Below, piece by piece: positions 9,873 to 30,083 of a stretch of DNA of 64,000 bases (the stretch's first letter is position 1; each line of letters opens with the position of its first letter). The notes beneath the pieces are model-generated. The model worked only from the letters and a program-made list of their open reading frames with translations, ran no database searches and had not been told where the DNA came from. Source of the stretch: Aliihoeflea sp. 2WW (GTDB lineage Bacteria > Pseudomonadota > Alphaproteobacteria > Rhizobiales > Rhizobiaceae); contig NZ_AYOD01000011.1 in assembly GCF_000497755.1 (NCBI RefSeq), positions 15,741-79,740 on the forward strand, read 5' to 3'. Made by a program: the position numbers and the translations under genes.

Positions 9873-10331
9873 TCACGAACGCACAGTCTGCGAGATTTCG
9901 CCGGGAGGCAGCAGCCTGAATTCCTCCGACGCAAGCATCGCCGCCTCCGGGCCGGCGGGCGAATAGACGGCCAGGATTCTGACCGGCTCCCATCCAACGT
10001 TGAAGGTCGAATGGAAGGCACCCTTGGGTATGACGACGAGTTCGCCGGCGCCGATCAAGCGCGTGCGCGGCTTCCCCTCTTCATATTCGATCGTCATCTC
10101 CGCCTTGCCGGCGACCATGAATATCAGTTGCTCGGACGCTTCGTGCCGGTGCCGCGCATGGCCCTGCCCCGGCAGGAAATAGAGCGTCACGGCCGACATC
10201 GTCTCGCTCGTTCCGTTGTCCGGCGACGCGAGCAGTTTCAGCGTCGCCCATTCACACACGAGCGTTTCGACCTCCTCCGGATCGATGGCGACGGGTTCCT
10301 TTGCAATTTGCCTGAGTGCCTTGACCGTCAC
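9873..10331 (-). CDS. Cupin domain protein
   Basis: A 152-residue single-domain cupin. Motif 1 is visible as GHARHRHEASEQLIFMVAGKAE, with His and Glu metal ligands, and motif 2 as IPKGAFHSTFNVG. The start is taken at GTG 10331 because GGGGGAG lies directly upstream. The specific reaction is unknown; small cupins in such settings are often dioxygenases, isomerases or ligand sensors for the imported acid. It is the first gene of the cupin-TRAP unit and is divergent from the IclR regulator. The 67-base gap to the dctP start contains a short hairpin. Confidence 0.82.
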   Translation of the reverse strand: MTVKALRQIAKEPVAIDPEEVETLVCEWATLKLLASPDNGTSETMSAVTLYFLPGQGHARHRHEASEQLIFMVAGKAEMTIEYEEGKPRTRLIGAGELVVIPKGAFHSTFNVGWEPVRILAVYSPAGPEAAMLASEEFRLLPPGEISQTVRS

Positions 10332-11276: not shown

Positions 11277-12668
11277 CTAGCGGCCGACGGAGTTGTGGCC
11301 AGCAATATAGCCGAGCGCGATGGCCGTGAGCAGGCCGTTGCCCGAAAGGTATCCCGACACATCGGGTCCCGAAACGCCGCATGCCGCTCCGCCGCCGGCG
11401 AAGAGGTTGGGAAACGCCCGGCCCGAGTTGGACAGGACATGCGCCTCGCCATCGACCATCAGCCCGCCCTGCGTATGAAAAAGCGCGCCGGTGACCTTCA
11501 CGGCATGAAGGGGCGCTTTGAGCGCCGGCGTTGCGGTGAAATCGCGACCGAATTCGTCCACGCCCTCCCCGGCCTGAAGCGCCGCCGTCGCGCGCAGCGT
11601 GTCGGAGAGCGCGCGCGGGTCGACGTCAATCTGCCGCGCAAGCTCGTCCAGGCTGTCAGCACGGCGGATCGCGCCGGCCTCCATCGCATCGCGATAGTCG
11701 GGAAAGGCCTGAGCAAATTCGTGGATTCGCTGGTCATACACGTTCCAGGCGAAGCGCGACGGCTGAGCGAGAACCTTGACCGCCTGCTCGGAATATCCCG
11801 CATGCTCGTTCGAGAACCGCTGTCCGGCAGCGTTCACCTGGATACCGCCTTCCATCATCAGCGCCCACGAAATCAGGATCTGGTGCGGATGGGCGAGCGA
11901 GCCGTGGCCCTGGTAGCCGGAAAGGTCGCGGATGTCCGCGCCCAGCGCCTGCCCCCACAGCACGGCATCGCCCTGGTTTCCGGCATGGCCGTAGTAGTGG
12001 GCGCCGTCGAGTTCGGGGATGTGCCGGGCGACGAGATCGGCATTGCCGCCATAGCCGTTGCAGGCGAGGATCAGCGACTTGCAGGCAAGGTGTTCTTCGC
12101 TGCCATCGGTGCGTGTAATCCGCACGCCGCGAATGCGTTCTTCGTCGGTGAACAATCCGGTGACATGCGCACCCGTCGCCACCATGACGCCGGCAGCCTC
12201 GGCCGCCGTCGCGAGCCTTTGAAGCAGCGCCGCGCCGGTCTTTTCAGGCACCGCGTGCATGCGATGGCAGGAATGGCCGGGATAGAGGAAATCGTCGAGC
12301 ACGATCCATTCGAGACCGTGGCTGTCAGCCAGCCATTCGAGCGCGGGGCCGATCGCCTCCGACACGCTCGCGACGAGGCCGGGATCGGCCCGGTTCTTCG
12401 TCTTCGCCTGAATGTCGGCGGCAAAGCGCGCGGGCGTGTCGTCCTCGGTGCCGATCGCGCGCTGGAAACGCGTCGCCGACGCGGGAATGAAGCCGGACGA
12501 CATCGACGTCGAGCCCGTCGGCTTAACGTCTCGTTCCAGCACCAGCACGTCCGCGCCCGCCTCGACCGCGCGCAGGGCGGCAACGAGCCCGCACGCGCCC
12601 GCGCCGATGATCGCGACGTCGACCTCGGCGTCGGCCTGCATCGCAGATGCGGGCAGGACGGCGCTCAT
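11277..12668 (-). CDS. FAD-dependent dehydrogenase (fumarate reductase/succinate dehydrogenase flavoprotein-like)
   Basis: A 463-residue FAD_binding_2 family flavoprotein. The dinucleotide motif VAIIGAGACGLVAALRAVEAGADVLVLER is near residues 18-46, the GSTSMSSGFIPAS substrate-domain entry at about 52-64, and the C-terminal FAD-contacting LFAGGGAACGVSG and GLLTAIALG. Relatives include fumarate reductase, urocanate reductase and 3-ketosteroid dehydrogenase-like enzymes, which add or remove a C=C next to a carbonyl. It is the last gene of the fourteen-kilobase operon and overlaps the isochorismatase-like gene by four bases. A desaturation or saturation step on the pathway substrate is inferred. 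The sequence does not fix the substrate. Confidence 0.88.
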   Translation of the reverse strand: MSAVLPASAMQADAEVDVAIIGAGACGLVAALRAVEAGADVLVLERDVKPTGSTSMSSGFIPASATRFQRAIGTEDDTPARFAADIQAKTKNRADPGLVASVSEAIGPALEWLADSHGLEWIVLDDFLYPGHSCHRMHAVPEKTGAALLQRLATAAEAAGVMVATGAHVTGLFTDEERIRGVRITRTDGSEEHLACKSLILACNGYGGNADLVARHIPELDGAHYYGHAGNQGDAVLWGQALGADIRDLSGYQGHGSLAHPHQILISWALMMEGGIQVNAAGQRFSNEHAGYSEQAVKVLAQPSRFAWNVYDQRIHEFAQAFPDYRDAMEAGAIRRADSLDELARQIDVDPRALSDTLRATAALQAGEGVDEFGRDFTATPALKAPLHAVKVTGALFHTQGGLMVDGEAHVLSNSGRAFPNLFAGGGAACGVSGPDVSGYLSGNGLLTAIALGYIAGHNSVGR

Positions 12669-13279
12669 GCGCCCTCGACCATCGCGATCGCCTCTGCGAC
12701 GGTGATCGCCTTCGTCACGGTCGACAGGTCACGGATCGCGTTGTCGTGCGTTTCTTGCGAGAATGCGCCGCAGCCATCGGACAGGACGAAGGTGCGGAAG
12801 TCGCGCACATGCGCGTCACGCACGGTGGAGGCGACGCCGCCATTGGTGACGATCCCGCAGACGAACAGCGTTTCGATGCCCGCCTTCTTCAGCACGAATT
12901 CCATGCGCGACTGAAAGAAGGCCGAATAGGCGACCTTCTCGACCACGAAATCGGCCGGCTGGAGCCTGTCGACGAGTTGATGTCCCCAGGCGCCCGGCTG
13001 AAAGTCGCCCTTCTTCAGGAACGGGCGCAATTCCTTCAGATGCGGCGAGATCATCGGCTCGCCGCCGCGCCCCGGCACCAGCGTGAACTGCGTGGAGAGG
13101 ATGAAGCCGCCCTTCGCGCGCAACGCATCGGCAAACGGCTTCAGTCGCGCGGGCAGTTCGGCGATCATTTCCGCCGACTGGCCGGCTCGGCCATAGGCGC
13201 CCTCGGGATCGAGAAAATCGTTCTGCAGATCGACGATCAGCAGCGCGGTCTTCGTGGCGTCGATCGGTCCCGCCGCCAT
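12665..13279 (-). CDS. Isochorismatase-fold hydrolase lacking the usual catalytic cysteine
   Basis: A 204-residue member of the isochorismatase/cysteine-hydrolase superfamily. Asp17 (IVDLQNDF) and Lys115 (VVEKVAYS) of the catalytic set are present. At the position that holds the nucleophilic Cys in amidohydrolases (TNxCVxST) this protein has Gly148 (TNGGVAST). True isochorismatases such as EntB also lack Cys there and cleave vinyl ethers, so a non-amidase reaction is possible. Cys141 is a few residues earlier and not in the catalytic place. The ATG shares one base with the hyuA stop (TAATG). Its role in the pathway is unknown. Confidence 0.85.
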   Translation of the reverse strand: MAAGPIDATKTALLIVDLQNDFLDPEGAYGRAGQSAEMIAELPARLKPFADALRAKGGFILSTQFTLVPGRGGEPMISPHLKELRPFLKKGDFQPGAWGHQLVDRLQPADFVVEKVAYSAFFQSRMEFVLKKAGIETLFVCGIVTNGGVASTVRDAHVRDFRTFVLSDGCGAFSQETHDNAIRDLSTVTKAITVAEAIAMVEGA

Positions 13280-15333
13280 TATGTTTGCGCCCGCGAAATG
13301 ACGACGTTACCGAAGCCGTCCACGACGCCCTCGAGGCCCGGGTCGACGAAGATCGTCGTGTCGGCCTGCTCCAGGATCGCAGGGCCGGCAATCTTGGCGC
13401 CGACCGGCAGAGCGAGCCGGTCATAGAGCGGCGTGTCGTGCCAGGCGCCTTCGGCATAGACCTTGCGGCTGCCGGTCCGGCACTGTTCTGCCGTTTTGTC
13501 GGTGACCGGCGCAAAGGCACCCATGTCGAAGGCAGGACGGCGCCCGACGACCGCGACGCGGTAGTTCATGACGCGCATCGGGATGCCGGCGAGCAGACGA
13601 CCGAAGGCCGATCGGTAAGCCGCCTCGAACGCATCGCGGATCGCATCGACCGTCAGATCGCCCGCGGGCATGGCGAGCGGGACGGAAACGGTGTGCGTCT
13701 GGCCGAGATAGAGCATGTCGAGTTCGAAGATGCGGTCGACGCGCTCGAAGGAGACGCCGGCTGCCTTCAAAAGTTCGGCGGTTTCGTCGCTGACCTTCTT
13801 CATCTCCGCGCCGAGCGATGCGGCGTCCAGCCCGTCGAGCAGGCGATTGACGGTCTGAACGCGGTCATGGCGCATATCCGCGACGACGCAGCCGAGCGCA
13901 GATGTGACACCCGGAAAGCGCGGTACGAGCGCTGACTTCAAGCCCACTTCCTTGATCAGTGCGCCGGTGTGCAGCGCCCCGCCGCCGCCGAACGGCATGG
14001 CGGCGAAGTCGGCGGGATCATGTCCGCGCTCGATCGAGACGAGCCGGATCGCGCCCGCCATCTTGGCATTGGCGATCTTGAGAATCGCCTCGGCCGCTTC
14101 CTCGACGGAGAGGCCGAGCGGGCCTGCGACATGGGTCTCGATCGCACGCCGTGCGGCATCCACGTCGAGCCGCGCCAGCTTGCCGCCGATCGGGCGGTCG
14201 GCATTGATGCGGCCGAGCACGACATTGGCGTCGGTGACCGTCGGGCGGTCGTTGCCGAGCCCGTAGCAGACGGGACCCGGATCGGAGCCCGCCGATTCCG
14301 GGCCGACCTGCAGGATGCCGCCATTGTCGATGCCGGCGATCGAACCGCCGCCGGCACCGATGGTAGAAATCTCGATCATCGGCGTGCGGACGACGAGGCC
14401 GAAATCGATCGCGGTCTGCGCGGCAAGCGCGCTCTCGCCGTCCGCGACCAGCGAAACGTCGAAGGACGTGCCGCCCATGTCGCAGGTGATCACGTTCGGA
14501 AAGCCTGCGGCTTTTGCAATCGCCTGAGCGGCCATGACACCCGCCGCCGGGCCCGACAATGCCGTGCGGACAGGAAAGCGCTTGGCGGTGTCGATCGCCA
14601 TCACGCCGCCATTCGACTGGACGATCAGGATGTCACCGGCAAAGCCACGCTCTTTCAGCGTCTTTTCCAGACGGTCGAGATAGGACGAGACGACCGGCTG
14701 GAGATAGGCATTGAGCGCCGCGGTCGACAGCCGCTCGAATTCGCGGATTTCCGGCACGATCTCGGTTGCCGCCGTCACATAGCCGTTCGGCCAGATTGCG
14801 CGCACGGCCTCGACGGCTTGCCGCTCATTGGCGTCGTTCGCATAGCCATTGACGAAGAAGACGCAGACCGCATCGCAGCCTGCCGCCTTCAGCATCTCGG
14901 CCTGCGCGCGAACCTCGTCGTCGTTGACGGCCTCGCGCACCGTGCCGTCGGCGAGCACGCGCTCGCTCACTTCGAGGCGATGCTCGCGGCTGATGACCGG
15001 CGTGTACTGCCCCCACAGGCCCCAGGTCGAAGGCCGGTCGCGCCGGCGCATCTCGAGCACGTCGCGAAAGCCGCGCGTGGTGATGATGCCGGTCTTCGCG
15101 CCCTTGCGCTCCAGAAGCGCGTTGGTGCCGACCGTGGTACCATGGACGACGGTCGCGATCTCGGAGAAATCGGCGACGATGCGGCCGATCCCTTCGGCGA
15201 AACCCTTCGACTGGTCGCCGCGCGTCGACGGGATCTTGGTCGTCTGGACGGTATGGTCGATCTGGTCGTAGACGAAGATGTCGGTAAAGGTCCCGCCGAC
15301 ATCGACGCCGATCACATAGCGTTTCTCGCTCAT
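13279..15333 (-). CDS. hyuA: Hydantoinase/oxoprolinase family subunit A
   Basis: A 684-residue protein of the HyuA (N-methylhydantoinase A / 5-oxoprolinase / acetone carboxylase beta) family with an actin-like ATPase fold. The phosphate-binding motif VDVGGTFTDIFVYD is at residues 10-23; CDMGGTSFDVSLV and GAGGGSIAGID follow in the central domain, and SDPGPVCYG is the family signature. These enzymes hydrolyse cyclic amides or carboxylate ketones using ATP, in complex with HyuB. It overlaps hyuB by four bases and the isochorismatase-like gene by one base. The cyclic amide substrate is inferred from family and context; a carboxylase activity is the alternative. Confidence 0.93.
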   Translation of the reverse strand: MSEKRYVIGVDVGGTFTDIFVYDQIDHTVQTTKIPSTRGDQSKGFAEGIGRIVADFSEIATVVHGTTVGTNALLERKGAKTGIITTRGFRDVLEMRRRDRPSTWGLWGQYTPVISREHRLEVSERVLADGTVREAVNDDEVRAQAEMLKAAGCDAVCVFFVNGYANDANERQAVEAVRAIWPNGYVTAATEIVPEIREFERLSTAALNAYLQPVVSSYLDRLEKTLKERGFAGDILIVQSNGGVMAIDTAKRFPVRTALSGPAAGVMAAQAIAKAAGFPNVITCDMGGTSFDVSLVADGESALAAQTAIDFGLVVRTPMIEISTIGAGGGSIAGIDNGGILQVGPESAGSDPGPVCYGLGNDRPTVTDANVVLGRINADRPIGGKLARLDVDAARRAIETHVAGPLGLSVEEAAEAILKIANAKMAGAIRLVSIERGHDPADFAAMPFGGGGALHTGALIKEVGLKSALVPRFPGVTSALGCVVADMRHDRVQTVNRLLDGLDAASLGAEMKKVSDETAELLKAAGVSFERVDRIFELDMLYLGQTHTVSVPLAMPAGDLTVDAIRDAFEAAYRSAFGRLLAGIPMRVMNYRVAVVGRRPAFDMGAFAPVTDKTAEQCRTGSRKVYAEGAWHDTPLYDRLALPVGAKIAGPAILEQADTTIFVDPGLEGVVDGFGNVVISRAQT

Positions 15334-17021
15334 GCCGCGGCATCCTTCTTCAAGCCATGGCCGTAGTCACGTTCGGCGGCATCGGCCGAGACATATCCAA
15401 GTGCGATGTCGCGCTCGATCCGGGCCGGGTCGCGCTCGGAAGCCGGGCCGTACCCTCCGCCGCCGGGCGTCTCCAGCCGTACCTTCTGGCCGCGCTTCAG
15501 TTTAATGCCGACCATCTTGGACGCCATGGGCGGGTGGTGGTCGCCGTCGGCCTGCCCATAGGAAAAGCTGTTCAGAACGGAATCGCCGCCACCCGCAACA
15601 CCCTTCGGCGCAAAGCGCCCGCGCTCGCCGAACAGGAAGACATCGGCGCTCTCTTCCAGAAGTTCGAGTTCGTAAACCGCGCCGAGACCACCGCGGCTCT
15701 TCCCCGCCCCGCCTGAATCCAGCCGCAGCGCCCATTGCGTGAACATCACCGGATAGGCGGCTTCGAGGATTTCGAGCGGCGGGATGGTCGCGGTCGAGAT
15801 CGGCGCGTTGCCGTGGTTCAGCCCATCGCCTTCCGGATGGCCGCCATGGCCGCCGCCGAAGAAGGAGAACATCACCCAGCGCTTTTTATCGGCGCCGCGA
15901 TAGCCGGCGAGCGACAACGCATTGATCGTGCCATAGGCGCAGCCGTTGGAGCGTTCCGGCGCGATCTTCGCGATCGCCTGGAAGACCACGTCGATGAGAC
16001 GCAGGATCGTCTCCGTGTAGCCGCCGACGGGCTTGGGTGCGACGACGGACAACAGACTGTCCTCGGGGATGACGAAATCGACGGGCTCCAGCACGCCGGC
16101 ATTGGCCGGCACGTCGCCGAAGACATGTTTCAGCGCGACGTAGCAGGCAGCGATCGTCGTTGCGCGCGAGATGTTGACCGGCCCGGCGCAGGCGAGCGAC
16201 GAGCGGGAGAAATCCATCACCATGCGGCCATTCTCGATGGTCAGATCGAGCGCGATCGTCAGCGGCTCGTCGACGATGCCGTCATTGTCGAGATAGTCCT
16301 CGGCCGACACCGAGCCCTGCGGCAGCTTGTCGATCTCGGCGCGCATCAGTTTTGCCGCGCGGGCCTTCAATTCGCCGAGCGCGCCCGACACCGTCTCGTC
16401 GCCATAGTCGGAGAGGAGTTCGGTCATCCGCTTGACGCCGAGGTCGAGCGCGTTGATCTGGCCGTTCAGATCGCCGAAGAGCGAGTTCGGCAGGCGGGAG
16501 TTGGACGACAGGATGTCGATCACGTCCTGACGCAATTCACCCCGATCGAAGAGCTTGACCGGCGGAATGAGCATGCCTTCCTGGAAGCTTTCGGTCGCGA
16601 CCGGATTGTAATTGCCCGGCACATTGCCCCCGACATCATGCCAGTGACCGACCGAAGCGAGGTAGCAGAAGACCTCGCCATTGCGGAACAGCGGACGCAC
16701 GAGACGGAAGTCCGACAAATGCGTACCGCCAGCATAGGGATCGTTGAATATCCACACGTCGCCGTCCTGCGGGCCGCCGCTCTTGGCCGCCTTCTCGATG
16801 ACGGCCTTCACCGCAAACGCCATGACGCCGACGAAGATCGGCAGGCCGGACTTGCCCTGCACCAGCGTGTCGCCGGTCTTCGCATCGTAGATGCCGTGCG
16901 AGGCGTCATGCGCCTCGGCGATGATCGGGTTGAACGCGGAGCGAAACAGGGTCGCGTCCATCTCGTCGGCGATCTGCTCCAACCGGCCCTTCAGGATTGC
17001 CAGGAGGACGGGATCAATCAT
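15330..17021 (-). CDS. hyuB: Hydantoinase/oxoprolinase family subunit B
   Basis: A 563-residue HyuB family protein, partner of HyuA. Visible family features are the N-terminal DATLFRSAFNPIIAEAHDASHGIYD, the FNDPYAGGTHLSDF segment near residue 95, the GGGHGGHPEGDG loop and the glycine-rich C-terminal ETPGGGGYG. The start is ATG 17021, with AGAGG nine bases before, giving an eight-base overlap with the upstream lyase gene. Together HyuAB would catalyse ATP-dependent opening of a lactam, imide or hydantoin ring in the cytoplasm. Confidence 0.93.
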   Translation of the reverse strand: MIDPVLLAILKGRLEQIADEMDATLFRSAFNPIIAEAHDASHGIYDAKTGDTLVQGKSGLPIFVGVMAFAVKAVIEKAAKSGGPQDGDVWIFNDPYAGGTHLSDFRLVRPLFRNGEVFCYLASVGHWHDVGGNVPGNYNPVATESFQEGMLIPPVKLFDRGELRQDVIDILSSNSRLPNSLFGDLNGQINALDLGVKRMTELLSDYGDETVSGALGELKARAAKLMRAEIDKLPQGSVSAEDYLDNDGIVDEPLTIALDLTIENGRMVMDFSRSSLACAGPVNISRATTIAACYVALKHVFGDVPANAGVLEPVDFVIPEDSLLSVVAPKPVGGYTETILRLIDVVFQAIAKIAPERSNGCAYGTINALSLAGYRGADKKRWVMFSFFGGGHGGHPEGDGLNHGNAPISTATIPPLEILEAAYPVMFTQWALRLDSGGAGKSRGGLGAVYELELLEESADVFLFGERGRFAPKGVAGGGDSVLNSFSYGQADGDHHPPMASKMVGIKLKRGQKVRLETPGGGGYGPASERDPARIERDIALGYVSADAAERDYGHGLKKDAAA

Positions 17022-17892
17022 GGGTGAACCTCTTTTCGTCATAGGCATTGCCGGCTTCGAGCAGGTCGTCGGTGCCGACGACATCGTTGATGCCGGCAAA
17101 ATCGTACATCTGGTCGCGGAACGGCGCGTTGGAGCCCGATTTGAGCAGGCTGTCGAAATAGGCGCGGCTGATCTTCGCCACCGCGCGCGTCAGGCCGCCG
17201 GGGAAGATGACCAGCGAGAAGCCGAGCGCCTCGAGATCCGTCGCCGTCATCGGCGGCGTCTTGCCGCCTTCGACCATGTTCGCCATCAACGGCACGCGCT
17301 CGCCAAGGCTCGCGACGATCTGCTTCATCTCGTCAAGCGAGCGCGGCGCCTCGACGAACACCATGTCCGCGCCGGCCTCGGCATAGGCAGCGGCCCGGTC
17401 GAGAGCAGCCTCGAACCCTTCGACGCCGATGGCATCGGTACGGGCGACGACGACGAAGTCATCGGCCGCGCGAGCGTCGGTCGCGGCCTTGATCTTGCCC
17501 ATCATCTCGCCGGTGGAGATCAGCGACTTGCCGTTCAAATGCCCGCAACGCTTGGGCATCGTCTGGTCTTCGAGCTGGATTGCCGCAGCGCCCATGCGCT
17601 CGAACATGCGCACCGTGCGCTGCACGTTGAGCGCATTACCGAAGCCGGTGTCGCCATCGACGATCAGCGGCAGTGCGACGCGATCGCAGATGACGGCGAC
17701 CGCATCCGCGACCTCGCTCATCGAGACGAGGCCGATATCGGGACGGCCAAAGCGGGTATAAGCAAGCGATGCGCCGGACAGGTAGATCGCTTCCGCGCCG
17801 GCCTGCTCTGCGATCAGCGCCGAAAGGCCGTCATAGACACCGGGTGCGACGATTATGCCTTCGTCGCCGAGGCGCGCTTTCAGGCGCTTCAT
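17014..17892 (-). CDS. Isocitrate lyase/PEP mutase family lyase (dimethylmalate or methylisocitrate lyase-like)
   Basis: A 292-residue (beta/alpha)8 enzyme of the ICL/PEPM superfamily. VDGDTGFGN (79-87) carries the Mg-binding Asp, and KRCGH (114-118) is the active-site loop with the catalytic Cys116 seen in C-C bond lyases. The length matches 2-methylisocitrate lyase and 2,3-dimethylmalate lyase. Directly upstream lie the two subunits of an aconitase-like hydro-lyase, the arrangement known from the anaerobic nicotinate pathway of Eubacterium barkeri (dmdA, dmdB, dml). A retro-aldol cleavage of a substituted malate to pyruvate plus a carboxylic acid is therefore inferred. It overlaps both neighbours (4 and 8 bases). 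Confidence 0.88.
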   Translation of the reverse strand: MKRLKARLGDEGIIVAPGVYDGLSALIAEQAGAEAIYLSGASLAYTRFGRPDIGLVSMSEVADAVAVICDRVALPLIVDGDTGFGNALNVQRTVRMFERMGAAAIQLEDQTMPKRCGHLNGKSLISTGEMMGKIKAATDARAADDFVVVARTDAIGVEGFEAALDRAAAYAEAGADMVFVEAPRSLDEMKQIVASLGERVPLMANMVEGGKTPPMTATDLEALGFSLVIFPGGLTRAVAKISRAYFDSLLKSGSNAPFRDQMYDFAGINDVVGTDDLLEAGNAYDEKRFTHD

Positions 17893-18392
17893 TGTTGTTC
17901 TCCTCGGTTCATGCGCTCGCGCGCGAAGCGTTTTTCGAGATGCGGCACCAATCCGCCATCGGCGATCATCTCGATCAGAAAATCAGGCAAAGGCTCCAGC
18001 TCGATCGTCCCGCTTAAGGTCGTTAGCCGGCTGTTGCGAACGTCCAGTTCTACGTCGTCGCCAGCCTCTATGCCGCCGATCTGATCGCCGCCGACGAAAA
18101 CCGGCAGGCCGAGATTGATCGCATTGCGCTGGAAGATGCCGGCAAAGGATCGCGCGACGATGCCGGCGACGCCCAGATGCTTGAGCGCCTGCGCGGCCTG
18201 CTCGCGCGACGAGCCCATACCGAAATTTTTGCCTGCAACGATGACGTCGCCCGGCTTCACCGACGATGCGAAGTCGGGATCGACGGCTTCGAGGCAGTGC
18301 TGCGCCAGCACCTCGATTCCGCCGCCCATATATTGGCCGGGGGCGAGCGCGTCGGTGTCGATGTCGTTGCAGAAGACGAAGGCCCGGTTCAT
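17889..18392 (-). CDS. Aconitase-family hydro-lyase small subunit (LeuD/DmdB-like)
   Basis: A 167-residue swivel domain, the small subunit of a LeuCD-type hydratase. VFCNDIDTDALAPGQY near the start and NFGMGSSREQAAQALKHLGVAGIVARSF at about residues 58-85 are diagnostic. The length fits the stand-alone subunits of isopropylmalate isomerase, homoaconitase and 2,3-dimethylmalate dehydratase. Start ATG 18392 overlaps the large-subunit stop by four bases. Housekeeping LeuD is less likely because the gene sits in a transporter-lyase operon without leuA or leuB. Confidence 0.9.
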   Translation of the reverse strand: MNRAFVFCNDIDTDALAPGQYMGGGIEVLAQHCLEAVDPDFASSVKPGDVIVAGKNFGMGSSREQAAQALKHLGVAGIVARSFAGIFQRNAINLGLPVFVGGDQIGGIEAGDDVELDVRNSRLTTLSGTIELEPLPDFLIEMIADGGLVPHLEKRFARERMNRGEQQ

Positions 18393-19672
18393 GCCGCGTC
18401 CCCGAATTCGCGCGGGTCCGCGATGCGCCCAGTGATGGCGGAGGCTGCGACCGTGTATGGCGAGCCGAGATAGACCATCGAGGACTTCGCGCCCATGCGG
18501 CCCTTGAAGTTGCGCGCAGTGGTGGAGATGCAGGTTACGTCCTCGCCGAGCCGCGCCGAGCCATAGCCGGCGCAGATGCCGCAGGCGTTCGGCAGCACCC
18601 TGGCGCCGGCATCCTCCAGCACCTTCATGATGCCGTCTCGCTCCGCGCGCTCCTGGTCGCGCTTTGACGAGGGCGCGACGAGGAGTTCGACGCCTTTGGC
18701 CAATGTGTGGCCGCGGATGATGTCGGCGGCGGCTTTCAGGTCGACATATTTCGCGCCGGTGCACGCGCCAATATAGGCGACGTCGATGCCGGTCGGCTCG
18801 TAGTCGGAAATGCCTGCGGAATTCGCTGGCGAATGCGGCGCGGCGACCTGCGGTTCCAGTGCCGAGGCGTCGAAGCGATGCGTTTCGGCAACCGTCGCGC
18901 CTTCGTCGCTCTGCCAGTCTGCCGCCTCCGGCAAATCGGTCGCGCCATGCTCGGCAAGCCAGCGCGTCGTCGTCTCGTCGGGCGCGATCAGGCCGGCCTG
19001 GGCGCCGAGTTCGGCCGCCATGTTCGACATGGTCATGCGCTCCTGCATCTCCAGCACGCGGACCGTTTCGCCGGCATATTCGATCGCCTGGTAACGCCCG
19101 CCATCCATGCCGAGCTTGCCGCACATGGCGAGGATCATGTCCTTGGCCATCAGGCGCGGGCCGAGCGTGCCGGACCATTCGATCCGGATCGTCTCCGGCA
19201 CTTTCAGCCAGATTTCGCCGGTCGCGAGCACGCCCGCCATCTCGGTCGCGCCGACGCCGAACATGTAGGCACCAAAGGCGCCGCCAGTGGGCGAATGGCT
19301 GTCGCCGCCGACGACCAGCATTCCCGGCTTCAAATGTCCCCGCTCCGGCAGGACGACATGACAGATGCCCTCGCCGTCATAAAAGGAAACGCCCTTTTCC
19401 TGCGCCCATGCCCGCGTCAGGGCGAGGATGGCCGCGCCCTCCTCCGTGTCGCCGGGCACGTAGTGATCGGAGATCAGCACGACCTTCTTCGTGTCGAACA
19501 GCCCGACACCGAGCCGCTTCAGGATCGGCTCGACCCGGCGCGGCCCACCCGAATCGTGGATCATCGCGAGGTCGACCTTCGTCGTCACGACCTCGCCCGG
19601 CGTAACGCTCGCACGTCCGGCGGCGCGGGCGATGATCTTTTCGGCAAGGGTCGTCGGGCGGGACATGGTCAT
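18389..19672 (-). CDS. Aconitase-family hydro-lyase large subunit (LeuC/DmdA-like)
   Basis: A 427-residue iron-sulfur hydro-lyase. VVGGDSHSPTGGAFGAY is the family signature near residue 120, and the three [4Fe-4S] ligands are Cys304 (GACTGAK), Cys364 and Cys367 (NACGIC). The size matches the short LeuC2 group, which includes isopropylmalate isomerases and 2,3-dimethylmalate dehydratase. Together with the small subunit it would interconvert an unsaturated dicarboxylate and its malate, giving the substrate for the next enzyme, the ICL/PEPM lyase. It overlaps the ABC ATPase stop by four bases, so catabolic genes are translationally coupled to the importer. Confidence 0.92.
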   Translation of the reverse strand: MTMSRPTTLAEKIIARAAGRASVTPGEVVTTKVDLAMIHDSGGPRRVEPILKRLGVGLFDTKKVVLISDHYVPGDTEEGAAILALTRAWAQEKGVSFYDGEGICHVVLPERGHLKPGMLVVGGDSHSPTGGAFGAYMFGVGATEMAGVLATGEIWLKVPETIRIEWSGTLGPRLMAKDMILAMCGKLGMDGGRYQAIEYAGETVRVLEMQERMTMSNMAAELGAQAGLIAPDETTTRWLAEHGATDLPEAADWQSDEGATVAETHRFDASALEPQVAAPHSPANSAGISDYEPTGIDVAYIGACTGAKYVDLKAAADIIRGHTLAKGVELLVAPSSKRDQERAERDGIMKVLEDAGARVLPNACGICAGYGSARLGEDVTCISTTARNFKGRMGAKSSMVYLGSPYTVAASAITGRIADPREFGDAA

Positions 19673-20385
19673 ATCCCCAGATAGGAGCGCTGGAGGTTCG
19701 GATCATCCATCAGCGTCGCGGCAGGGCCGGAGAGACTGATCGCGCCGTTTTCCAGCACGTAGCCGGTGGTCGCGATTTCCAGCGACTGCGCGACGTTCTG
19801 CTCGACGAGCAGGATCGTCAGCCCTTCCTCGTTCAGCCGGCGGATGAGATTGAACATCTCCTCGACCAGAAGCGGCGAAAGGCCGAGCGACGGTTCGTCG
19901 AGAATCAGCAGTTCCGGCTCGGCCATCATACCCCGCCCGATCGCCAGCATCTGCTGTTCGCCGCCCGACAGCGTACCCGCCTTCTGCTCGAACCGCTCCT
20001 TCAGGCGCGGGAAGATGGCGACGATCTTATCGATATTGGCATCGCGATTGCCCCGCGCACGGCGATAGGAGCCGAGGATCAGGTTTTCCTTCACCGTCAT
20101 GTTCGGGAAGATCAGCCGGCCTTCGGGCACTAGGCTCATGCCGGCGTCGACGACGCTCGCCGCTCCGATGCCGGTGATGTCGCTGCCCTTGAAGGCGACC
20201 TTGCCCGCCCATGGCCGGATGAGGCCGGACAGCACCGCGTTGAACGTCGTCTTGCCGACGCCGTTCGAGCCGAGCAGCGCGACGATGTCGCCGCGCCGGA
20301 TGGTGAGATCGACGCCGCGCAGGACCTCGACGGCGCCATAACCGGCGCGCAGGCCGGAGACTTCGAGAATGGGCTCGCCGCTCAT
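19669..20385 (-). CDS. livF: Branched-chain-type ABC transporter ATP-binding protein (LivF family)
   Basis: A 238-residue ABC ATPase. Walker A is GSNGVGKTT (about 39-47), the signature LSGGEQQMLAIGRGM, Walker B LLILDEPSLGLSPLLVEEMF, and the switch His is replaced by the usual LivF LLVEQN. It energises import through LivHM with LivG. The substrate of HAAT-family systems can be an amino acid, amide, urea or small aromatic or aliphatic acid; here it is probably the pathway substrate. It overlaps livG and the hydro-lyase gene by four bases each. Confidence 0.95.
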   Translation of the reverse strand: MSGEPILEVSGLRAGYGAVEVLRGVDLTIRRGDIVALLGSNGVGKTTFNAVLSGLIRPWAGKVAFKGSDITGIGAASVVDAGMSLVPEGRLIFPNMTVKENLILGSYRRARGNRDANIDKIVAIFPRLKERFEQKAGTLSGGEQQMLAIGRGMMAEPELLILDEPSLGLSPLLVEEMFNLIRRLNEEGLTILLVEQNVAQSLEIATTGYVLENGAISLSGPAATLMDDPNLQRSYLGI

Positions 20386-21131
20386 GCCGGCACCTCCGCC
20401 GCCTGCCGCTTCAGCCGTGCGGCCATCCCCGGCCCCAGATACGCTTCGACGACGGTCTGGTTGGCCGCGACCGCGCGCGGCTCTCCCTCGGCGATCAAGC
20501 GGCCCTGGTTGAGCACGAAGGTGTACTCCGACAAGCTCATGACGGCCTGCATGACATGCTCGATCAGAAGGATCGTCACCCCCGAATCCCGCACGGCGCG
20601 GATGACCGGAATGACGTCGCGGATTTCACTCGGGTTCAGCCCGGCCAGCACCTCGTCGAAGAGGACAAGCTTGGGATCGGTCGCGAGCGCCCGAGCGACT
20701 TCGAGTCGTTTGCGGCCGGCGACCGTCAGATCGGCAGCATCCTGGTCGAGCCGGTCGCCGAGGCCCACTTTCTCGGCCACCTCCCGCGCCCGGTCGAGCG
20801 CGTCGCGGCGCGAGGTATGGCGCAGATGCGCGCCGACGGCGATGTTTTCGCGCACCGTCTGGCCGGCGAAGGGCTGCACAATCTGGAAGGTGCGCACCAT
20901 TCCTGCGCGGGCGATGTCACTCGGCTTGACGCCCAGAATGTCGCTTCCGGCGAGCGTCACCGTTCCGCTGTCCGGCTTGTGGAAGCCGGTGACGAGCGCG
21001 AAGAACGTCGTCTTGCCCGCGCCGTTCGGCCCGATCAAGGAGACGAGACTGCCTTCGGCGATCTTCATCGACACGTTGTCGACCGCCTTCAGCCCGCCGA
21101 AGGATTTGGAGATGCCATTGACCTCAAGCAT
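20382..21131 (-). CDS. livG: Branched-chain-type ABC transporter ATP-binding protein (LivG family)
   Basis: A 249-residue ABC ATPase with Walker A GPNGAGKTTFFALVTGF, the LivG-type VRTFQIVQPF Q-loop region, signature LTVAGRKRLEVARAL (a less common LTVAG variant), Walker B KLVLFDEVLAGLNPSE and switch LLIEHVMQAV. The start is ATG 21131 (MLEVNGISK), overlapping the livM end by eight bases; a longer N-terminus is open but unlike the family. It partners LivF. Confidence 0.94.
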   Translation of the reverse strand: MLEVNGISKSFGGLKAVDNVSMKIAEGSLVSLIGPNGAGKTTFFALVTGFHKPDSGTVTLAGSDILGVKPSDIARAGMVRTFQIVQPFAGQTVRENIAVGAHLRHTSRRDALDRAREVAEKVGLGDRLDQDAADLTVAGRKRLEVARALATDPKLVLFDEVLAGLNPSEIRDVIPVIRAVRDSGVTILLIEHVMQAVMSLSEYTFVLNQGRLIAEGEPRAVAANQTVVEAYLGPGMAARLKRQAAEVPA

Positions 21132-22101
21132 TGGCCGGCCTCCGCTTCGAAAATGCCCGCTTTGCAACGGAGAAGATGCTGATCAGGCCGCGCGGCAGGA
21201 ACATGACGATCACGATCAGGAGCACGCCGTAGATCGCCAGCGCGACGCCCGGCACGTCGCCGATATTGTGGCGCGTGACTTCGGACAGCGTGTGGATGAC
21301 GGCGGCGCCGATCAGCGGGCCGAACAATGTGCCCATGCCGCCGATGATCGGCACCAGAAGCGATTCGATCGAGATCGCCGAGCCGTAAGCGATCAGCGGG
21401 TCAAGATAGAGGTAGAACTGGGCGTAGAAGACGCCAGCAAGCCCGGAGAAAAAGCCGGAGAGCGCAACTGCGCCCATCTTGGTCTTGAACACGTCGACGC
21501 CCAATGCGCGAGCCGCATCCTCATTGTCGCGCACGGCCATCAGCCAGGCGCCGAAGCGCGAGCGGCCGAGCCACCAGACAGTGAGGAAGCAGGCGAGGCA
21601 GAGCGTCCAGATCAGCCAGAAATAACCGCGATTGTCGGCGAACTGCATGTTGGCGATGTCGCGCTCGAGCGGGATCAGGATGCCGACGCCACCGCCGGTA
21701 AAGCCGACCGAGTTCGACAGGATGCGCAGCACTTCTGCGAAGGCGAGCGTCACCAGCGCGAAATAGGAGCCGCGCAGGCCGTAGCGGAACGAGGCGAAGC
21801 CGACGAAGAGCGCGACGCCCATGGCGAGAAGCCCGCCGGCGACCATGCCCAGCCACGGATTGATGCCGAACTGGATTTGAAGCACCGCCACCGTATAGGC
21901 GCCGGTGCCGAAGAAGGCCGCATGGCCGAAGGAGAACTGGCCGCCATAGCCGCCGAGAATGTTCCACGCCTGGCCGAGCAGCGCGATGTAGAGGATCGCG
22001 ATCACCGTGTTCAGCGTCGAGGGCGAGACGATCCAGAATGGACAGGTGGCGATCAGGCCGAAAATGACGAGAAGAGCGACGAGTTGCTTGGTGTTGATCA
22101 T
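21124..22101 (-). CDS. livM: Branched-chain-type ABC transporter permease (LivM family)
   Basis: A 325-residue inner-membrane permease with about eight to ten helices. The LivM signature GGYGGQFSFGHAAFFGTGAYT is near residues 50-70, the EAA-like cytoplasmic stretch AVRDNEDAARALGVDVFKTK at about 205-225, and the GGMGTLFGPLIGA loop near 255. It forms the channel with LivH. The gap to livH is nine bases. Confidence 0.94.
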   Translation of the reverse strand: MINTKQLVALLVIFGLIATCPFWIVSPSTLNTVIAILYIALLGQAWNILGGYGGQFSFGHAAFFGTGAYTVAVLQIQFGINPWLGMVAGGLLAMGVALFVGFASFRYGLRGSYFALVTLAFAEVLRILSNSVGFTGGGVGILIPLERDIANMQFADNRGYFWLIWTLCLACFLTVWWLGRSRFGAWLMAVRDNEDAARALGVDVFKTKMGAVALSGFFSGLAGVFYAQFYLYLDPLIAYGSAISIESLLVPIIGGMGTLFGPLIGAAVIHTLSEVTRHNIGDVPGVALAIYGVLLIVIVMFLPRGLISIFSVAKRAFSKRRPANA

Positions 22102-22110
22102 CCGCCCGCC

Positions 22111-22983
22111 TCAGACCTTGTGACCCAGAAGTCCCGTCGGGCGGAACATCAGGATCAGGATGAAGATGGCGAAGATGCCGAACTGGCCGAGGCTGTCCCC
22201 CAGGAACAACCCGCCCATGGCTTCCACCACGCCGATCACCAGCCCGCCGATCATGGCGCCGACGAAGGAGCCCATGCCGCCGAGGACGACCGTGGTGAAG
22301 GCGATCAGCACGAAGCCGTAGCCGACCTGCGGATTGACGTAGTAGCTCGGCATCAAGAGGCAGGCCGCAACGCCAAGGCAGGCGACGCCGATGCCGAAGC
22401 TCATGGCGAAGACGTGGTCGACATTGATGCCGACGAGCCGCGCGCCCTTGCGTTCCTTGGCGAGCGCGCGGATGGCGCGACCGAGATCGGTCTTCGACAT
22501 GAAGGCCCAAAGCAGCGCGGCCGTCACCAGCGCGCCGAAAAAGGCGACGACCTTGGCGACGGGAACGAATGCACCGGCAAACTCGACCACCTCGAAGGAA
22601 TAGGGCGTCTCGATGGTTCGCGTGTCGGAGCGGAAGAAATAGAGCGCCATGTTCTCGATGATGATCGAGAGGCCCAGCGTGACGAGCAGGATATTCTCGT
22701 CGCGGCCATGGCTGGCCCGGCCGATGATGCCGCGTTGGAGCGCGTAGCCGATCGCGAACATGGCCGGCGGCACGATCAGAAGCGCCACATAGGGATCGAT
22801 GCCGAACAGGCGGTTCAGGAAGAAGACGCCGTAAAGCGCCATCATCAGCATCGCGCCATGGGCGAAGTTGATGATGTGCAGGACACCGTAGATCAGCGTC
22901 AGGCCGAGCGCGACGAGCGCGTAGAGCGCGCCCGTCGTCAGCCCGTTGATCAGCGATGGTATCAGGATGACCGGATCGATCAT
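22111..22983 (-). CDS. livH: Branched-chain-type ABC transporter permease (LivH family)
   Basis: A 290-residue permease with about eight helices. LivH motifs are GALYALVALGLTLIYGVLHIINFAHG near the N-terminus, RALAKERKGARLVGINVD in the coupling loop and VLGGMGSFVGAMIGG in the C-terminal half. The start is ATG 22983 (MIDPVILI). It follows the receptor gene by a 60-base gap containing a GC-rich hairpin. Confidence 0.94.
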   Translation of the reverse strand: MIDPVILIPSLINGLTTGALYALVALGLTLIYGVLHIINFAHGAMLMMALYGVFFLNRLFGIDPYVALLIVPPAMFAIGYALQRGIIGRASHGRDENILLVTLGLSIIIENMALYFFRSDTRTIETPYSFEVVEFAGAFVPVAKVVAFFGALVTAALLWAFMSKTDLGRAIRALAKERKGARLVGINVDHVFAMSFGIGVACLGVAACLLMPSYYVNPQVGYGFVLIAFTTVVLGGMGSFVGAMIGGLVIGVVEAMGGLFLGDSLGQFGIFAIFILILMFRPTGLLGHKV

Positions 22984-23000
22984 GTCACAACCTGTGATGC

Positions 23001-23023
23001 GGCGCGGAGCCATGCCCCGCGCC
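23001..23023 (-). other. Intercistronic hairpin between the receptor gene and livH
   Basis: GGCGCGG (23001-23007) pairs with CCGCGCC (23017-23023) around a nine-base loop. No U-run follows in the direction of transcription. A hairpin right after a periplasmic-receptor gene commonly protects the upstream mRNA, so the receptor can be made in excess over the membrane subunits. Confidence 0.45.
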
Positions 23024-23043
23024 CGTTTCGTTCAGGCGGAAGG

Positions 23044-24264
23044 TCAGGCCGGGACCGGGAAGATCACCTCGGCGGAGGCGAATTCTTCCGGCAGGACCAC
23101 CTGGATCTCGCCGCCCTGAACCTGCGTATTGACCGCCTGCGCCCCAGTGTTCTGGCCGTTCTCGATCTTGGTCGGCCCGTAGGGCATGCCGTGATTGTCC
23201 CAGGTCGAGGAGTTGAGCGCCTCGATGATGGCCTCGTTCTCGGTCGATCCCGCGCGTTCGATCGCATCGGCGAGGAAGGCGACGGCGTTGTAGGCAAGGA
23301 AGATCTCGTAAGTGTAGAACAGGCCCTTCTCCTCGGCGGCGGCGCGACGCTGCACCGCGACTTCGGAATTCGGGTCGTACCAGTGGTTGCAGTCCATGAT
23401 GTTCTCGGCCGCTTCCGGGAATTCCTGGACGAATTGCAGATTCGAGGCCGCGCCACCGAGCACCGAGTAGATGCCCTTGGCCGCGATGCGCTGCTGGCGC
23501 AGCGTGCGGGCGAGGAGCACGTATTCGTTGTAGTAGTTGGCGGGAATGATGAGGTCCGGCTGCAGCGAGCGGAGCTGAAGCGCGATGTTGGTGAAGTCGC
23601 GCGTCGGATTGGCGTGGCGGATGACCTCCAGAACTTCGATGCCGATATTCGGCAGCTCCTTGGCAAGGAGTTCGGCCGTGCCGGTGCCGAACAGCGACTC
23701 CTCGTGGATGATGACGGCCGTCTTGGCCTCGCCGCTGGCGTTGATCGCCTTCAGGGCTTCCACGGCAGAATTCGCCACGGAGCCGAAGCCGGGCGCGAAG
23801 CGGAACGTGTTTTCGAGATTGCGTTCCATGATGTTGTCGGCAACGCCGACATCGACGATGTGGGGCGTCATCGTCTTGGCCGCTTCCTGCGAGGTCGCGA
23901 GCGAGATTGCCGACGAATAGCCCGCGATGATGCCGGTCGCGCCGGCCTCGATCAGGCGAGCAGTCTCGGACGCTCCGAGTTCCGGACGGCCCTGGCTGTC
24001 GGCGAGCATCGCTTCGAGCTTGGCGCCGTTCATCGACTGGATGCCGCCGGCGGCGTTGATATCGGCGATAGCCATCTCCGCGCCGACACGGCACTGCGTG
24101 CCGGAAAACGAGACGAAGCCGGTCACCGGGTGAACCAGGCCGAGACGGATCGCGTCGGGCTCCTGCGCACGCAGGACAGCCGGAAAGCCCGTCACGAGGG
24201 CTGCGGTTCCGGCTCCGGCCAGAAACTGCCGGCGTTTGATGGGCGTATGGATAAGCGTCTTCAT
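23044..24264 (-). CDS. ABC transporter substrate-binding protein (HAAT/amide-urea type)
   Basis: A 406-residue periplasmic receptor. The N-terminus has a twin-arginine signal (KRRQFLAGAGTAALVTG), followed by an AQE cleavage region, so it is probably exported folded by Tat. The mature protein begins IRLGLVHPVTGFVS and has the Peripla_BP_6 elements AIADINAAGGI, YSSAISLATSQEA and NHWYDPNS. This resembles receptors for amides, urea and short-chain acids more than the leucine receptor. A GAGAGGA site precedes ATG 24264. It is the second gene after the regulator. Confidence 0.92.
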   Translation of the reverse strand: MKTLIHTPIKRRQFLAGAGTAALVTGFPAVLRAQEPDAIRLGLVHPVTGFVSFSGTQCRVGAEMAIADINAAGGIQSMNGAKLEAMLADSQGRPELGASETARLIEAGATGIIAGYSSAISLATSQEAAKTMTPHIVDVGVADNIMERNLENTFRFAPGFGSVANSAVEALKAINASGEAKTAVIIHEESLFGTGTAELLAKELPNIGIEVLEVIRHANPTRDFTNIALQLRSLQPDLIIPANYYNEYVLLARTLRQQRIAAKGIYSVLGGAASNLQFVQEFPEAAENIMDCNHWYDPNSEVAVQRRAAAEEKGLFYTYEIFLAYNAVAFLADAIERAGSTENEAIIEALNSSTWDNHGMPYGPTKIENGQNTGAQAVNTQVQGGEIQVVLPEEFASAEVIFPVPA

Positions 24265-24293
24265 GTCAGTTCCTCTCTTTTCTTATGATTGGA

Positions 24294-25163
24294 TCACTTG
24301 TCGTTCGAACGGCCGGACGGGTCCTGGCCGAGCGACTGCCACTGCATTCCCTCGCGGCGGCGGACGCGCTTCAAGTTCATCTCGAACTGGTACTTGTCGG
24401 GCCGGTAGAGCACGCGGATGAACTCGACCGGCCGGTCGTCGACATCGCGAACGATGCGCCTGACATCGATGAGCGGCGAGCCGGCATGGATCGACAGCGC
24501 GCGGGCGATCTCCGGTTCGGCCAGCGTCGCCGAGACGCTCTGACGCGCATCGGCTACCTTGACGCCGTGGCGCTCCATCAGCGTCAGGAGCGGAAAGCTT
24601 CCCATCTCGTCACGATCGAAGGACCGCCCGATGTCCTCCGGGACGTAGGTCACCAGATGCGACATCGGTTCGCCGTCCAGCGAACGCACGCGCACCGTCC
24701 GCTGGACGATCGTGCCCTGCTTGACAAGCAAGGCCTCAGCCACTTCGGCCAGGGCCGGGACGTAGTCGAACTCGAGCACTTCGACATCGGTCGCCACGCC
24801 CATCAGCGAGATGTTTTCCAGCCAGCCCTCGACCGAAGTCTTGATCGTCGGCGCGGGCGGCGTATCGGAAACGCGCGTCCCGCGACCACGCTCGCGCACC
24901 GCAAGCCCGGCATCGGCAAGCTCGTTCAGCGCACGTTTGGCCGTGATGCGCGATACGGCGAAACGCTCGGCCAGTTCCTGTTCGCCCGGCAGAGCCGCGC
25001 CAGGACGCAGTTCGCCCGAAAATATTTGGTTGCGCAGGATGATCAGGATCTGGTGGTAGAGCGGCACGCGCGACGTCGGGTCGATCAGCGCTCGGCGCGG
25101 CACGGCCGTGCCCGACGACTGCGACTTCTGCTCCCGACCCATATCGCCCATGAATTCGCCCAT
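24294..25163 (-). CDS. GntR family transcriptional regulator with UTRA domain (HutC subfamily)
   Basis: A 289-residue regulator. The winged helix (about residues 32-100) contains VPLYHQILIILRNQIFSGELRPGAALPGEQELAERFAVSRITAKRAL, followed by a UTRA effector domain (about 115-270) ending FIRVLYRPDKYQFEMNLKR. It is the first gene of the operon, only 29 bases before the receptor gene on the same strand. It faces the palindrome at 25217-25240, its likely operator, which it would release when a pathway intermediate binds. Confidence 0.94.
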   Translation of the reverse strand: MGEFMGDMGREQKSQSSGTAVPRRALIDPTSRVPLYHQILIILRNQIFSGELRPGAALPGEQELAERFAVSRITAKRALNELADAGLAVRERGRGTRVSDTPPAPTIKTSVEGWLENISLMGVATDVEVLEFDYVPALAEVAEALLVKQGTIVQRTVRVRSLDGEPMSHLVTYVPEDIGRSFDRDEMGSFPLLTLMERHGVKVADARQSVSATLAEPEIARALSIHAGSPLIDVRRIVRDVDDRPVEFIRVLYRPDKYQFEMNLKRVRRREGMQWQSLGQDPSGRSNDK

Positions 25164-25216: not shown

Positions 25217-25240
25217 TAATGATATAACAATATACCATTA
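25217..25240. promoter_or_regulatory. Palindromic operator of the GntR/HutC-type regulator
   Basis: TAATGATATA and TATACCATTA form ten-base arms with one mismatch around ACAA. The dyad lies in the AT-rich divergent intergenic region between the regulator-importer-catabolic operon and the tautomerase-fusion gene. It is well placed to control both directions. GntR/HutC regulators typically bind symmetric AT-rich dyads of this size. Confidence 0.65.
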
Positions 25241-30082: not shown

Positions 30083-30083
30083 G

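Follow-up and report, generated by a model that had tools for sequence, protein, structure and literature searches.

A conserved importer and enzyme operon of Aliihoeflea sp. 2WW with a probable role in cyclic imide breakdown

Introduction

What compound would a bacterium import and degrade with a Liv-type transporter, a HyuAB-type ring opener, a LeuCD-type hydro-lyase and a PrpB-like lyase encoded in one run of genes? The question is raised by positions 11277–25163 of a 64,000-nucleotide stretch of Aliihoeflea sp. 2WW DNA (contig NZ_AYOD01000011.1; the whole stretch is called the window), where 13 genes, all of them open, lie on the minus strand from a GntR/UTRA regulator to an FAD_binding_2 protein, as identified from open reading frames and Pfam. 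The answer favored here is that the operon probably acts on a cyclic imide by way of its hydratase and lyase. For the substrate itself confidence is evenly divided: it may be a five-membered imide ring of dialkylmaleimide type, with hematinic acid (2-methyl-3-(2-carboxyethyl)maleimide) and its kin from chlorophyll, heme and bilins as the likeliest candidates.

A conserved catabolic operon

The gene order is GntR/UTRA, LivK, LivH, LivM, LivG, LivF, LeuC-like, LeuD-like, ICL/PEPM lyase, HyuB, HyuA, an isochorismatase-fold protein (ISO) and FAD_binding_2 (Table 1). Gaps of 29, 30 and 9 bases separate GntR from LivK, LivK from LivH and LivH from LivM, and from livM onward the genes overlap by 8, 4, 4, 4, 4, 8, 4, 1 and 4 bases in order, lengths that rest on the start codons chosen for LivG and HyuB. 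The junction coordinates agree exactly with the initial annotation, which had read ten genes from livM as joined by overlaps of 1–8 bases; it also gave the order correctly and placed the genes on one strand, but it counted 12 genes, overlooked ISO, and mentioned neither a divergent tautomerase gene next to the regulator nor the palindrome between the two.

Relatives were sought with the window's LeuC-like protein as bait (loci and genomes are designated L and G below). LeuC at 58% identity or more occurs in 14 of 101 related genomes, the window's own included, and a LeuC profile built on 20 sequences (E ≤ 1e-120) has matches in 30 of 385 class genomes and 14 of 398 phylum genomes, with G000 and G207 counted in both sets; the phylum matches G484, G497 and G744 are distant, at 39–41% identity to the window LeuC. 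The best 80 of at least 587 LeuC relatives confirmed in a contig scan were combined with 6 plasmid loci and 48 further genome regions to give 134 loci, and removal of three without LeuC at 50% identity and of one duplicate left 130. This sample was chosen by LeuC similarity, favors close relatives and consists of loci that are not phylogenetically independent, many of them cut by contig ends. Neighboring genes are partly annotated, their families were called by identity thresholds set per family, and the names MmgE/PrpD, Asp/Glu racemase, AMDase-like and TctC-type were verified with Pfam on one representative each.

The gene-neighborhood search, which the initial annotation had proposed, shows that the core order recurs. 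The six-gene core (LeuC, LeuD, lyase, HyuB, HyuA and ISO) is complete in 78 of the 130 loci, and in all 78 it lies on a single strand within 9 kb. This clustering indicates that the association is not due to chance, and judged from sequence the conserved catabolic operon is real. Counted singly, LeuD is found in 126 loci, the lyase in 114, HyuB in 86, HyuA in 80, ISO with a glycine at the catalytic position (Gly-type) in 79, GntR in 79, the FAD gene in 68 (64 of the 80 with HyuA), LivH in 54, the PuuE families PuuE1 and PuuE2 in 12 and 10, ISO with a cysteine (Cys-type) in 8, and an AMDase-like gene in 5. The transporter varies: Liv genes are present in 54 of the 130 loci and in 45 of the 91 well-flanked ones described below, and TRAP-type genes and TctC-type receptors (TctC verified with Pfam in L106) recur elsewhere. 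There is indirect support for the earlier view that importer and enzymes stay together. By record titles the cluster is spread across Alphaproteobacteria and Burkholderiales, marine members included.

Proposed ring opening by exchangeable enzymes

As in ATP-dependent cyclic amidases of the HyuAB type, Hydantoinase_A and Hydantoinase_B domains lie on two adjacent genes. The closest solved relatives of HyuA are a protein named as N-methylhydantoinase (450 bits) and 5-oxoprolinase (6yra, 412 bits). HyuA and HyuB reach 544 and 301 bits against the caprolactamase CapA and CapB equivalogs, each with a cut-off of 1000, and a caprolactam route was set aside on these scores.

Which genes occupy this slot was compared in the 91 loci whose flanks reach 7.5 kb or more downstream and 6 kb or more upstream. 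HyuAB occurs with a Gly-type ISO in 68 of these (66 with that pair alone, 2 with a PuuE gene as well), PuuE occurs with a Cys-type ISO and no Hyu gene in 6, a Gly-type ISO stands alone in one (L078), and 16 loci, L150 among them, have none of these families. In L121 a Cys-type ISO and two PuuE genes sit between the lyase and the FAD gene, behind Liv genes. L150 carries an amidohydrolase between LeuD and the FAD gene whose best match is allantoinase (215 bits, cut-off 358), followed by dihydropyrimidinase. What the three opener families have in common chemically is that they open cyclic amides or imides, and since PuuE-type and hydantoinase-type openers belong to families that include cyclic imide hydrolases, their replacement of HyuAB narrows the substrate. 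Available sections of one paper relate the PuuE branch to a Pseudomonas putida cyclic imide hydrolase homologue and to fungal HxnM (PMC9304392), and published abstracts place imidase in the cyclic amidohydrolase family. Gene content and slot replacement thus favor the initial proposal that HyuAB opens the ring of an imported imide.

An isochorismatase-fold protein that lacks the catalytic cysteine

Alignment to 3kl2 and RutB assigns the active-site positions of ISO. All 80 aligned relatives, among them a duplicate, retain Asp17 and Lys115 and have glycine at the cysteine position, so the Asp-Lys-Cys triad of isochorismatase-type cysteine amidohydrolases is incomplete. On this alignment ISO is assigned to the fold but not to the cysteine amidases. 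Its structural model has a predicted local distance difference test (pLDDT) score of 91.6, and the nearest folds are TrtA, RutB and BiuH. ISO proteins linked to PuuE retain the cysteine in 8 of 8 cases; their best solved relatives, 4l07 (119 bits) and 4l08 (115 bits), are maleamate amidase of P. putida S16 by the title of 4l08, and the conversion of maleamate to maleate matches the half-amide step proposed here.

EntB and PhzD likewise lack the catalytic cysteine, and dialkylmaleamic acids are easily hydrolyzed through their neighboring carboxyl group. These two points make a cysteine-free helper conceivable, and ISO is possibly a half-amidase in which a carboxylate of the substrate itself serves as the nucleophile. 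A literature search on isochorismatases without the catalytic cysteine turned up just a paper on a nicotinamidase.

Proposed hydration and cleavage, and the FAD protein

LeuC and LeuD clear the subfamily cut-offs of PRK00402, TIGR01343, TIGR02086 and TIGR02087 (HacA/IPMI and LeuD/DmdB) and fall below those of all equivalogs shown. The iron-sulfur cysteines of LeuC are conserved, Cys304 in 131 of 131 relatives and Cys364 and Cys367 in 130 of 131 (one gap), and its best solved relatives are isopropylmalate/citramalate isomerase (344 bits) and then homoaconitase (301 bits). LeuD motifs were too variable among relatives to be of use. The next LeuC match in the same genome shows 40% identity over residues 3–288 and is presumably the housekeeping protein.

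The lyase carries the K-[KR]-C-G-H motif with the catalytic Cys116 in 113 of 113 relatives. Pro231 is equally invariant (113/113), and we take it to be a marker of PrpB-type lyases acting on 2-methylated substrates; a search for a paper on this marker found none. PrpB is the best solved relative at 199.7 bits, followed by dimethylmalate lyase at 177.3. In the rest of the genome only one weak match to the lyase was found (34% over 100 residues, E ≤ 1e-5). Identification as a housekeeping PrpB was set aside, because the protein scores 302.7 bits against a PrpB equivalog cut-off of 354.4 and the gene context differs. The initial annotation had held that a structure-based phylogeny placing the lyase with PrpB and the hydro-lyase with housekeeping LeuCD would refute its reading; by sequence scores half of this sign is seen, in that PrpB scores above dimethylmalate lyase. 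The LeuCD-type hydration followed by lyase cleavage to pyruvate and a carboxylate that it had put forward is consistent with these data.

The FAD protein (model pLDDT 90.4) is nearest in fold to urocanate reductase and flavocytochrome c3. In the alignment Met271 stands at the position of Arg402 and Tyr440 at that of Arg544, which we take to be the proton donor and the second substrate arginine of fumarate reductase, and these replacements are shared by relatives (M271 in at least 90%, Y440 in 41 of 41). The arginines expected of a flavocytochrome c fumarate reductase are thus absent, and the substrate is more likely to be an uncharged ring than a diacid resembling fumarate. Assignment as fumarate reductase or tricarballylate dehydrogenase was rejected because both arginines are lost and the scores lie under the cut-offs. 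A FAD-dependent change of saturation, a step in the earlier scheme, is kept as a proposal but made optional, given that just 68 of the 130 loci have the gene.

Glutarate as the predicted carboxylate product

The lyase superfamily converts R-CH(COOH)-C(OH)(R')-COOH to R-CH2-COOH and R'-CO-COOH, and the identity of R would follow from the carboxylate released. This is rather likely to be glutarate. On a Burkholderia plantarii plasmid (L022) the cluster runs on into genes for a porin, EtfBA, an acyl-CoA dehydrogenase and a CaiB protein. The dehydrogenase scores 735 bits to solved glutaryl-CoA dehydrogenase (GCDH), and succinate-glutarate CoA-transferase is the best model for the CaiB proteins of L022 (542 bits) and L078 (510 bits), under a cut-off of 750. 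GCDH relatives (at least 60% identity) lie beside seven of the 130 loci (L022, L052, L078, L130, L132, L134 and L150), two of which also have the succinate-glutarate-CoA-transferase-like gene. At one GCDH per 4.5 Mb, 0.51 would be expected in the 2.32 Mb covered (p 1.2e-6 for seven); without L022 and one of a same-genus pair, five remain (p 2e-4). The residues YRS, SVQS and YEGTHD are retained in all six aligned GCDH proteins, L022 included and the contig-cut L052 left out. The Aliihoeflea genome itself encodes, on other contigs, one GCDH that shares 70% identity with that of L022 and a relative of CaiB (53% at best). Among class genomes GCDH occurs in 26 of 30 with the cluster vs 191 of 355 without (Fisher p 4e-4), counts made by hand on the assumption that both draws comprise the same 385 genomes; differences in genome size and completeness confound the comparison, and it is given no weight here.

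With glutarate as product, R is CH2CH2COOH. With R' = CH3, the choice suggested by the invariant Pro231 in its presumed role as a PrpB-type marker, the diacid would then be 2-methyl-3-(2-carboxyethyl)maleate, whose imide is hematinic acid.

Proposed pathway and its significance

Read from gene content, order, conservation, slot replacement and conserved residues, the reactions, the regulation and the substrate may be pictured as follows. The imide would be imported through LivKHMGF, and the FAD protein would, optionally, introduce a C=C bond into saturated ring forms, such as the reduced ring of chlorophyll should give rise to. HyuAB would open the imide to a half-amide with ATP, and ISO would assist the release of ammonia to give the dialkylmaleate, maybe by way of the adjacent carboxylate. 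The LeuCD-type hydro-lyase would then hydrate the double bond to 2-methyl-homoisocitrate, which the PrpB-like lyase would cleave to pyruvate and glutarate, and enzymes encoded elsewhere in the genome would carry glutarate through glutaryl-CoA to crotonyl-CoA.

Hematinic acid is a small breakdown product of chlorophyll and heme. Passages of one study put chlorophyll production and degradation at about 10^12 kg a year, report hematinic acid in leaves at levels like those of other chlorophyll products, with maleimides not detected there, and refer to earlier reports of both from senescent leaves and lake sediments (PMC7318184). Release of hematinic acid from heme by ChuS is the subject of a title cited in two papers (PMC6018153; PMC8669743). 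The second of these deals with the transformation of sedimentary porphyrins by bacteria; in the sections available it lists maleimides among the products of pigments and makes no mention of a hydantoinase (PMC8669743). Searches of an open-access library, which lacks most subscription papers, yielded no bacterial catabolic gene set for hematinic acid, for maleimides or with this gene combination.

The widest form of the proposal is tentative: a widespread aerobic pathway might complete tetrapyrrole mineralization by taking up hematinic acid and related maleimides, opening them with exchangeable imide hydrolases, hydrating the products to methylhomoisocitrate and splitting this into pyruvate and glutarate, and a half-amidase of ISO type without cysteine might take part. 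If the proposal is right, the operon would supply candidate genes for the final stage in the turnover of heme and pigments, on land in soils as well as in the sea, give a function to a LeuCD/lyase/HyuAB set for which no name was found, and provide an enzyme of amidase fold whose catalytic cysteine has been lost.

Evidence against the proposal and alternative explanations

Several observations weigh against this pathway. In 15 of the 91 well-flanked loci (the 16 above minus L150) the hydratase is present, but the opener and ISO types sought are all missing from the partly annotated surroundings: 10 have a lyase without the FAD gene, four (L023, L140, L142 and L151) have no lyase at threshold, and L114 has both lyase and FAD gene. 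The hydratase may therefore serve other routes too. The PuuE proteins, with 1z7a as their best solved match and PuuE allantoinase next, may be nearer either to imidases or to allantoinase, and the missing cysteine of ISO speaks against a plain amidase. The solved proteins closest to LivK are named as amino-acid binding proteins, led by a probable Leu/Ile/Val-binding protein at 85.5 bits, and no tetrapyrrole-degrading genes were recognized among the partly annotated neighbors. As for glutarate, the idea originated from L022, which thus offers no independent test, and L130 and L132 come from the same genus. If two GCDH genes are assumed per genome, the probabilities become 1e-4 for seven loci and 4e-3 for five. 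GCDH lies near just seven of the 130 loci yet is present in 217 of 385 class genomes, so that glutarate is argued from neighbors. MmgE/PrpD-like and Asp/Glu-racemase-like genes, at 12 of the 130 loci each, are commoner neighbors than GCDH and have no place in the proposed scheme.

The alternative that survives best, though an unlikely one, keeps the route and changes the substituents: a methyl ethyl, methyl vinyl or dimethylmaleimide would yield pyruvate and a monocarboxylate (butyrate or propionate), as at the end of nicotinate fermentation. LeuD clears the LeuD/DmdB subfamily cut-off, and dimethylmalate lyase is among the solved relatives of the lyase; excerpts of PMC7318184 moreover list such maleimides next to hematinic acid among the products of heme and chlorophyll, and those of PMC8669743 list pyrrole maleimides as bacteriochlorophyll degradation products. 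Set against this, the lyase is nearer to PrpB, whose substrate has an extra carboxylate, and no B12 mutase or methylitaconate isomerase was recognized in the partly annotated neighbors, where the tautomerase could be an isomerase. The parallel with nicotinate and dimethylmalate drawn in the initial annotation is not favored for the same reason of PrpB affinity and because the neighbors suggest glutarate rather than propionate.

Less probable still is a demethyl route, in which carboxyethylmaleimide or butane-tricarboxylate would pass through homoaconitate and homoisocitrate to glyoxylate and glutarate, or an acetate-substituted compound would give oxaloacetate and glutarate. The GCDH evidence fits it equally well, LeuC clears the hacA family cut-off and has homoaconitase among its solved relatives (behind isopropylmalate/citramalate isomerase), and tricarballylate dehydrogenase TcuA is among the FAD family matches (155 bits, cut-off 369). 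The invariant Pro231, in its presumed role as a 2-methyl marker, points the other way, and we know of no common natural imide of the demethyl (carboxyethylmaleimide) type.

A hydantoin or ureide route is quite improbable. Creatinine breakdown includes N-methylhydantoinase and N-carbamoyl amino acid hydrolase steps, and by analogy HyuAB would be the former and ISO the latter, with the remaining genes acting on the amino acid product. The best solved relative of HyuA, the ureide hydrolases nearest to ISO in fold, the allantoinase family membership of PuuE and the presence of N-carbamoylsarcosine amidohydrolase among relatives of the Cys-type ISO are all in keeping with this; the window ISO, however, lacks the catalytic cysteine of ureide hydrolases, and the route was set aside because a hydro-lyase, a PrpB-like lyase and a flavoprotein resembling fumarate reductase are suggestive of dicarboxylates rather than of amino acids. 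A lactam substrate, man-made or plain (caprolactam or a glutarimide-like compound), for which the 544 bits of HyuA to the caprolactamase alpha model (cut-off 1000) may be cited, is very improbable for a cluster so widespread in Alphaproteobacteria and Burkholderiales, marine members included, and would yield no dialkylmaleate for the hydratase and lyase.

Proposed regulation, flanking genes and variant loci

Under the cyclic imide proposal, the GntR/UTRA protein would govern both the operon and the divergent tautomerase gene through a common operator, for which the AT-rich palindrome between them is the probable site. Comparable palindromes were judged by eye to be present in 11 of 16 loci with a divergent GntR and tautomerase-SnoaL pair, and relatives of the fusion protein (at least 38% identity) occur in 45 of the 130 loci. 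The tautomerase-SnoaL protein could be an isomerase in the pathway.

Table 1. Features of the operon and of the adjoining divergent gene (window coordinates).
Feature	Position	Strand	Basis
Divergent tautomerase (Pro after start Met) fused to SnoaL-like domain	25278..25856	+	Pfam
Palindrome TAATGGTATA-N4-TATATCATTA, probable GntR operator	~25217..25240		Sequence; between GntR and tautomerase-SnoaL gene
GntR/UTRA (HutC-type) regulator	24294..25163	-	Pfam UTRA 1.3e-31, GntR 1.1e-19
LivK-type periplasmic binding protein	23044..24264	-	Peripla_BP_6 3.5e-43
LivH permease	22111..23013	-	BPD_transp_2 1.2e-40
LivM permease	21124..22101	-	BPD_transp_2 7.9e-42
LivG ATPase	20382..21131	-	ABC_tran 2.8e-26, BCA_ABC_TP_C 2e-07; start set at 8-base overlap
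LivF ATPase	19669..20385	-	ABC_tran 1e-28
LeuC/HacA/DmdA-type Fe-S hydro-lyase large subunit	18389..19672	-	Aconitase 3.6e-93
LeuD/DmdB-type small subunit, 167 aa	17889..18392	-	TIGR02087 171.9 bits, cut-off 108.95 (longer open frame scanned)
ICL/PEPM-superfamily lyase, KRCGH motif	17014..17892	-	TIGR02317 302.7 bits, cut-off 354.4
HyuB, hydantoinase B/oxoprolinase-type subunit	15330..17021	-	Hydantoinase_B 4.1e-162 (longer open frame scanned)
HyuA, ATP-dependent subunit	13279..15333	-	Hydantoinase_A 1.7e-95
ISO, isochorismatase-fold protein	12665..13279	-	Pfam; Asp17 and Lys115 kept, Gly148 at catalytic Cys position
FAD_binding_2 dehydrogenase, flavocytochrome c/urocanate reductase-like without heme domain	11277..12668	-	Pfam

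Elsewhere in the window, three TRAP sets surround the operon (2489–5373, 6785–10021 and 26022–29184), two of the DctP/DctM type and one with an NMT1_3 (TAXI-type) receptor, and an IclR regulator lies at 10473–11228. Rhamnose-type sugar-nucleotide genes, an aminotransferase and a surface polysaccharide cluster occupy 29195–34109 and 38371–57261, with a DUF2793 gene (43580–44659) inside the polysaccharide cluster.

Among the related loci, L026, L092, L093, L100, L106, L107, L147 and L148 have a short form consisting of LeuC, LeuD, lyase and GntR, in which no ring opener was found and, in several, a TctC-type receptor gene lies directly upstream. In L078 and L079 FAD_binding_3-type monooxygenase-like genes and an arylmalonate-decarboxylase-like protein accompany LeuCD and the lyase in place of HyuAB, which is possibly another entry route. 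Distant LeuCD sets (LeuC 42–45% identical) are found on Haloferax (L157) and Peribacillus (L156) plasmids beside a CoA-transferase and an HMG-CoA-lyase-like gene, with an isochorismatase-family gene and a dihydropyrimidinase-like amidohydrolase in addition on the Haloferax plasmid; these sets look like a CoA-dependent version.

Comparison with known systems

Two-subunit, ATP-dependent ring opening is shared with N-methylhydantoinase, 5-oxoprolinase and caprolactamase (PMC8453981, of which the parts available mention no imides). Unlike caprolactamase, HyuAB of the operon scores under the CapA and CapB cut-offs, and its substrate would be an imide. The 2-methylcitrate cycle offers a likeness for the lower steps, in that PrpB, after an aconitase-type hydratase, cuts 2-methylisocitrate, one carbon shorter than the intermediate proposed here, to pyruvate and succinate; the operon differs, and its lyase falls under the PrpB equivalog cut-off. 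Nicotinate fermentation in Eubacterium barkeri ends with DmdAB and dimethylmalate lyase, again an aconitase-type dialkylmaleate hydratase followed by an ICL/PEPM lyase that gives pyruvate, whereas the operon would be entered through an imide and would probably yield glutarate, with no B12-dependent part recognized.

Aerobic nicotinate breakdown includes a maleamate step (NicF, Ami), and the Cys-type ISO of the PuuE clusters is nearest to solved maleamate amidase. In contrast to that route, the window ISO has no cysteine, and its product would undergo hydration and cleavage rather than isomerization to fumarate. In the bacterial route for cyclic imides an imidase and then a half-amidase give a dicarboxylate. 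The passage from imide through half-amide to diacid is thus common to the operon as proposed, the P. putida imidase pathway and, from the accessible text on it, HxnM/HxnN of Aspergillus nidulans (PMC9304392), and PuuE-type proteins stand in for HyuAB in relatives of the cluster. What sets the operon apart from the cyclic imide pathway is its usual opener, HyuAB, together with an ISO without cysteine and, after these, a hydro-lyase and a lyase.

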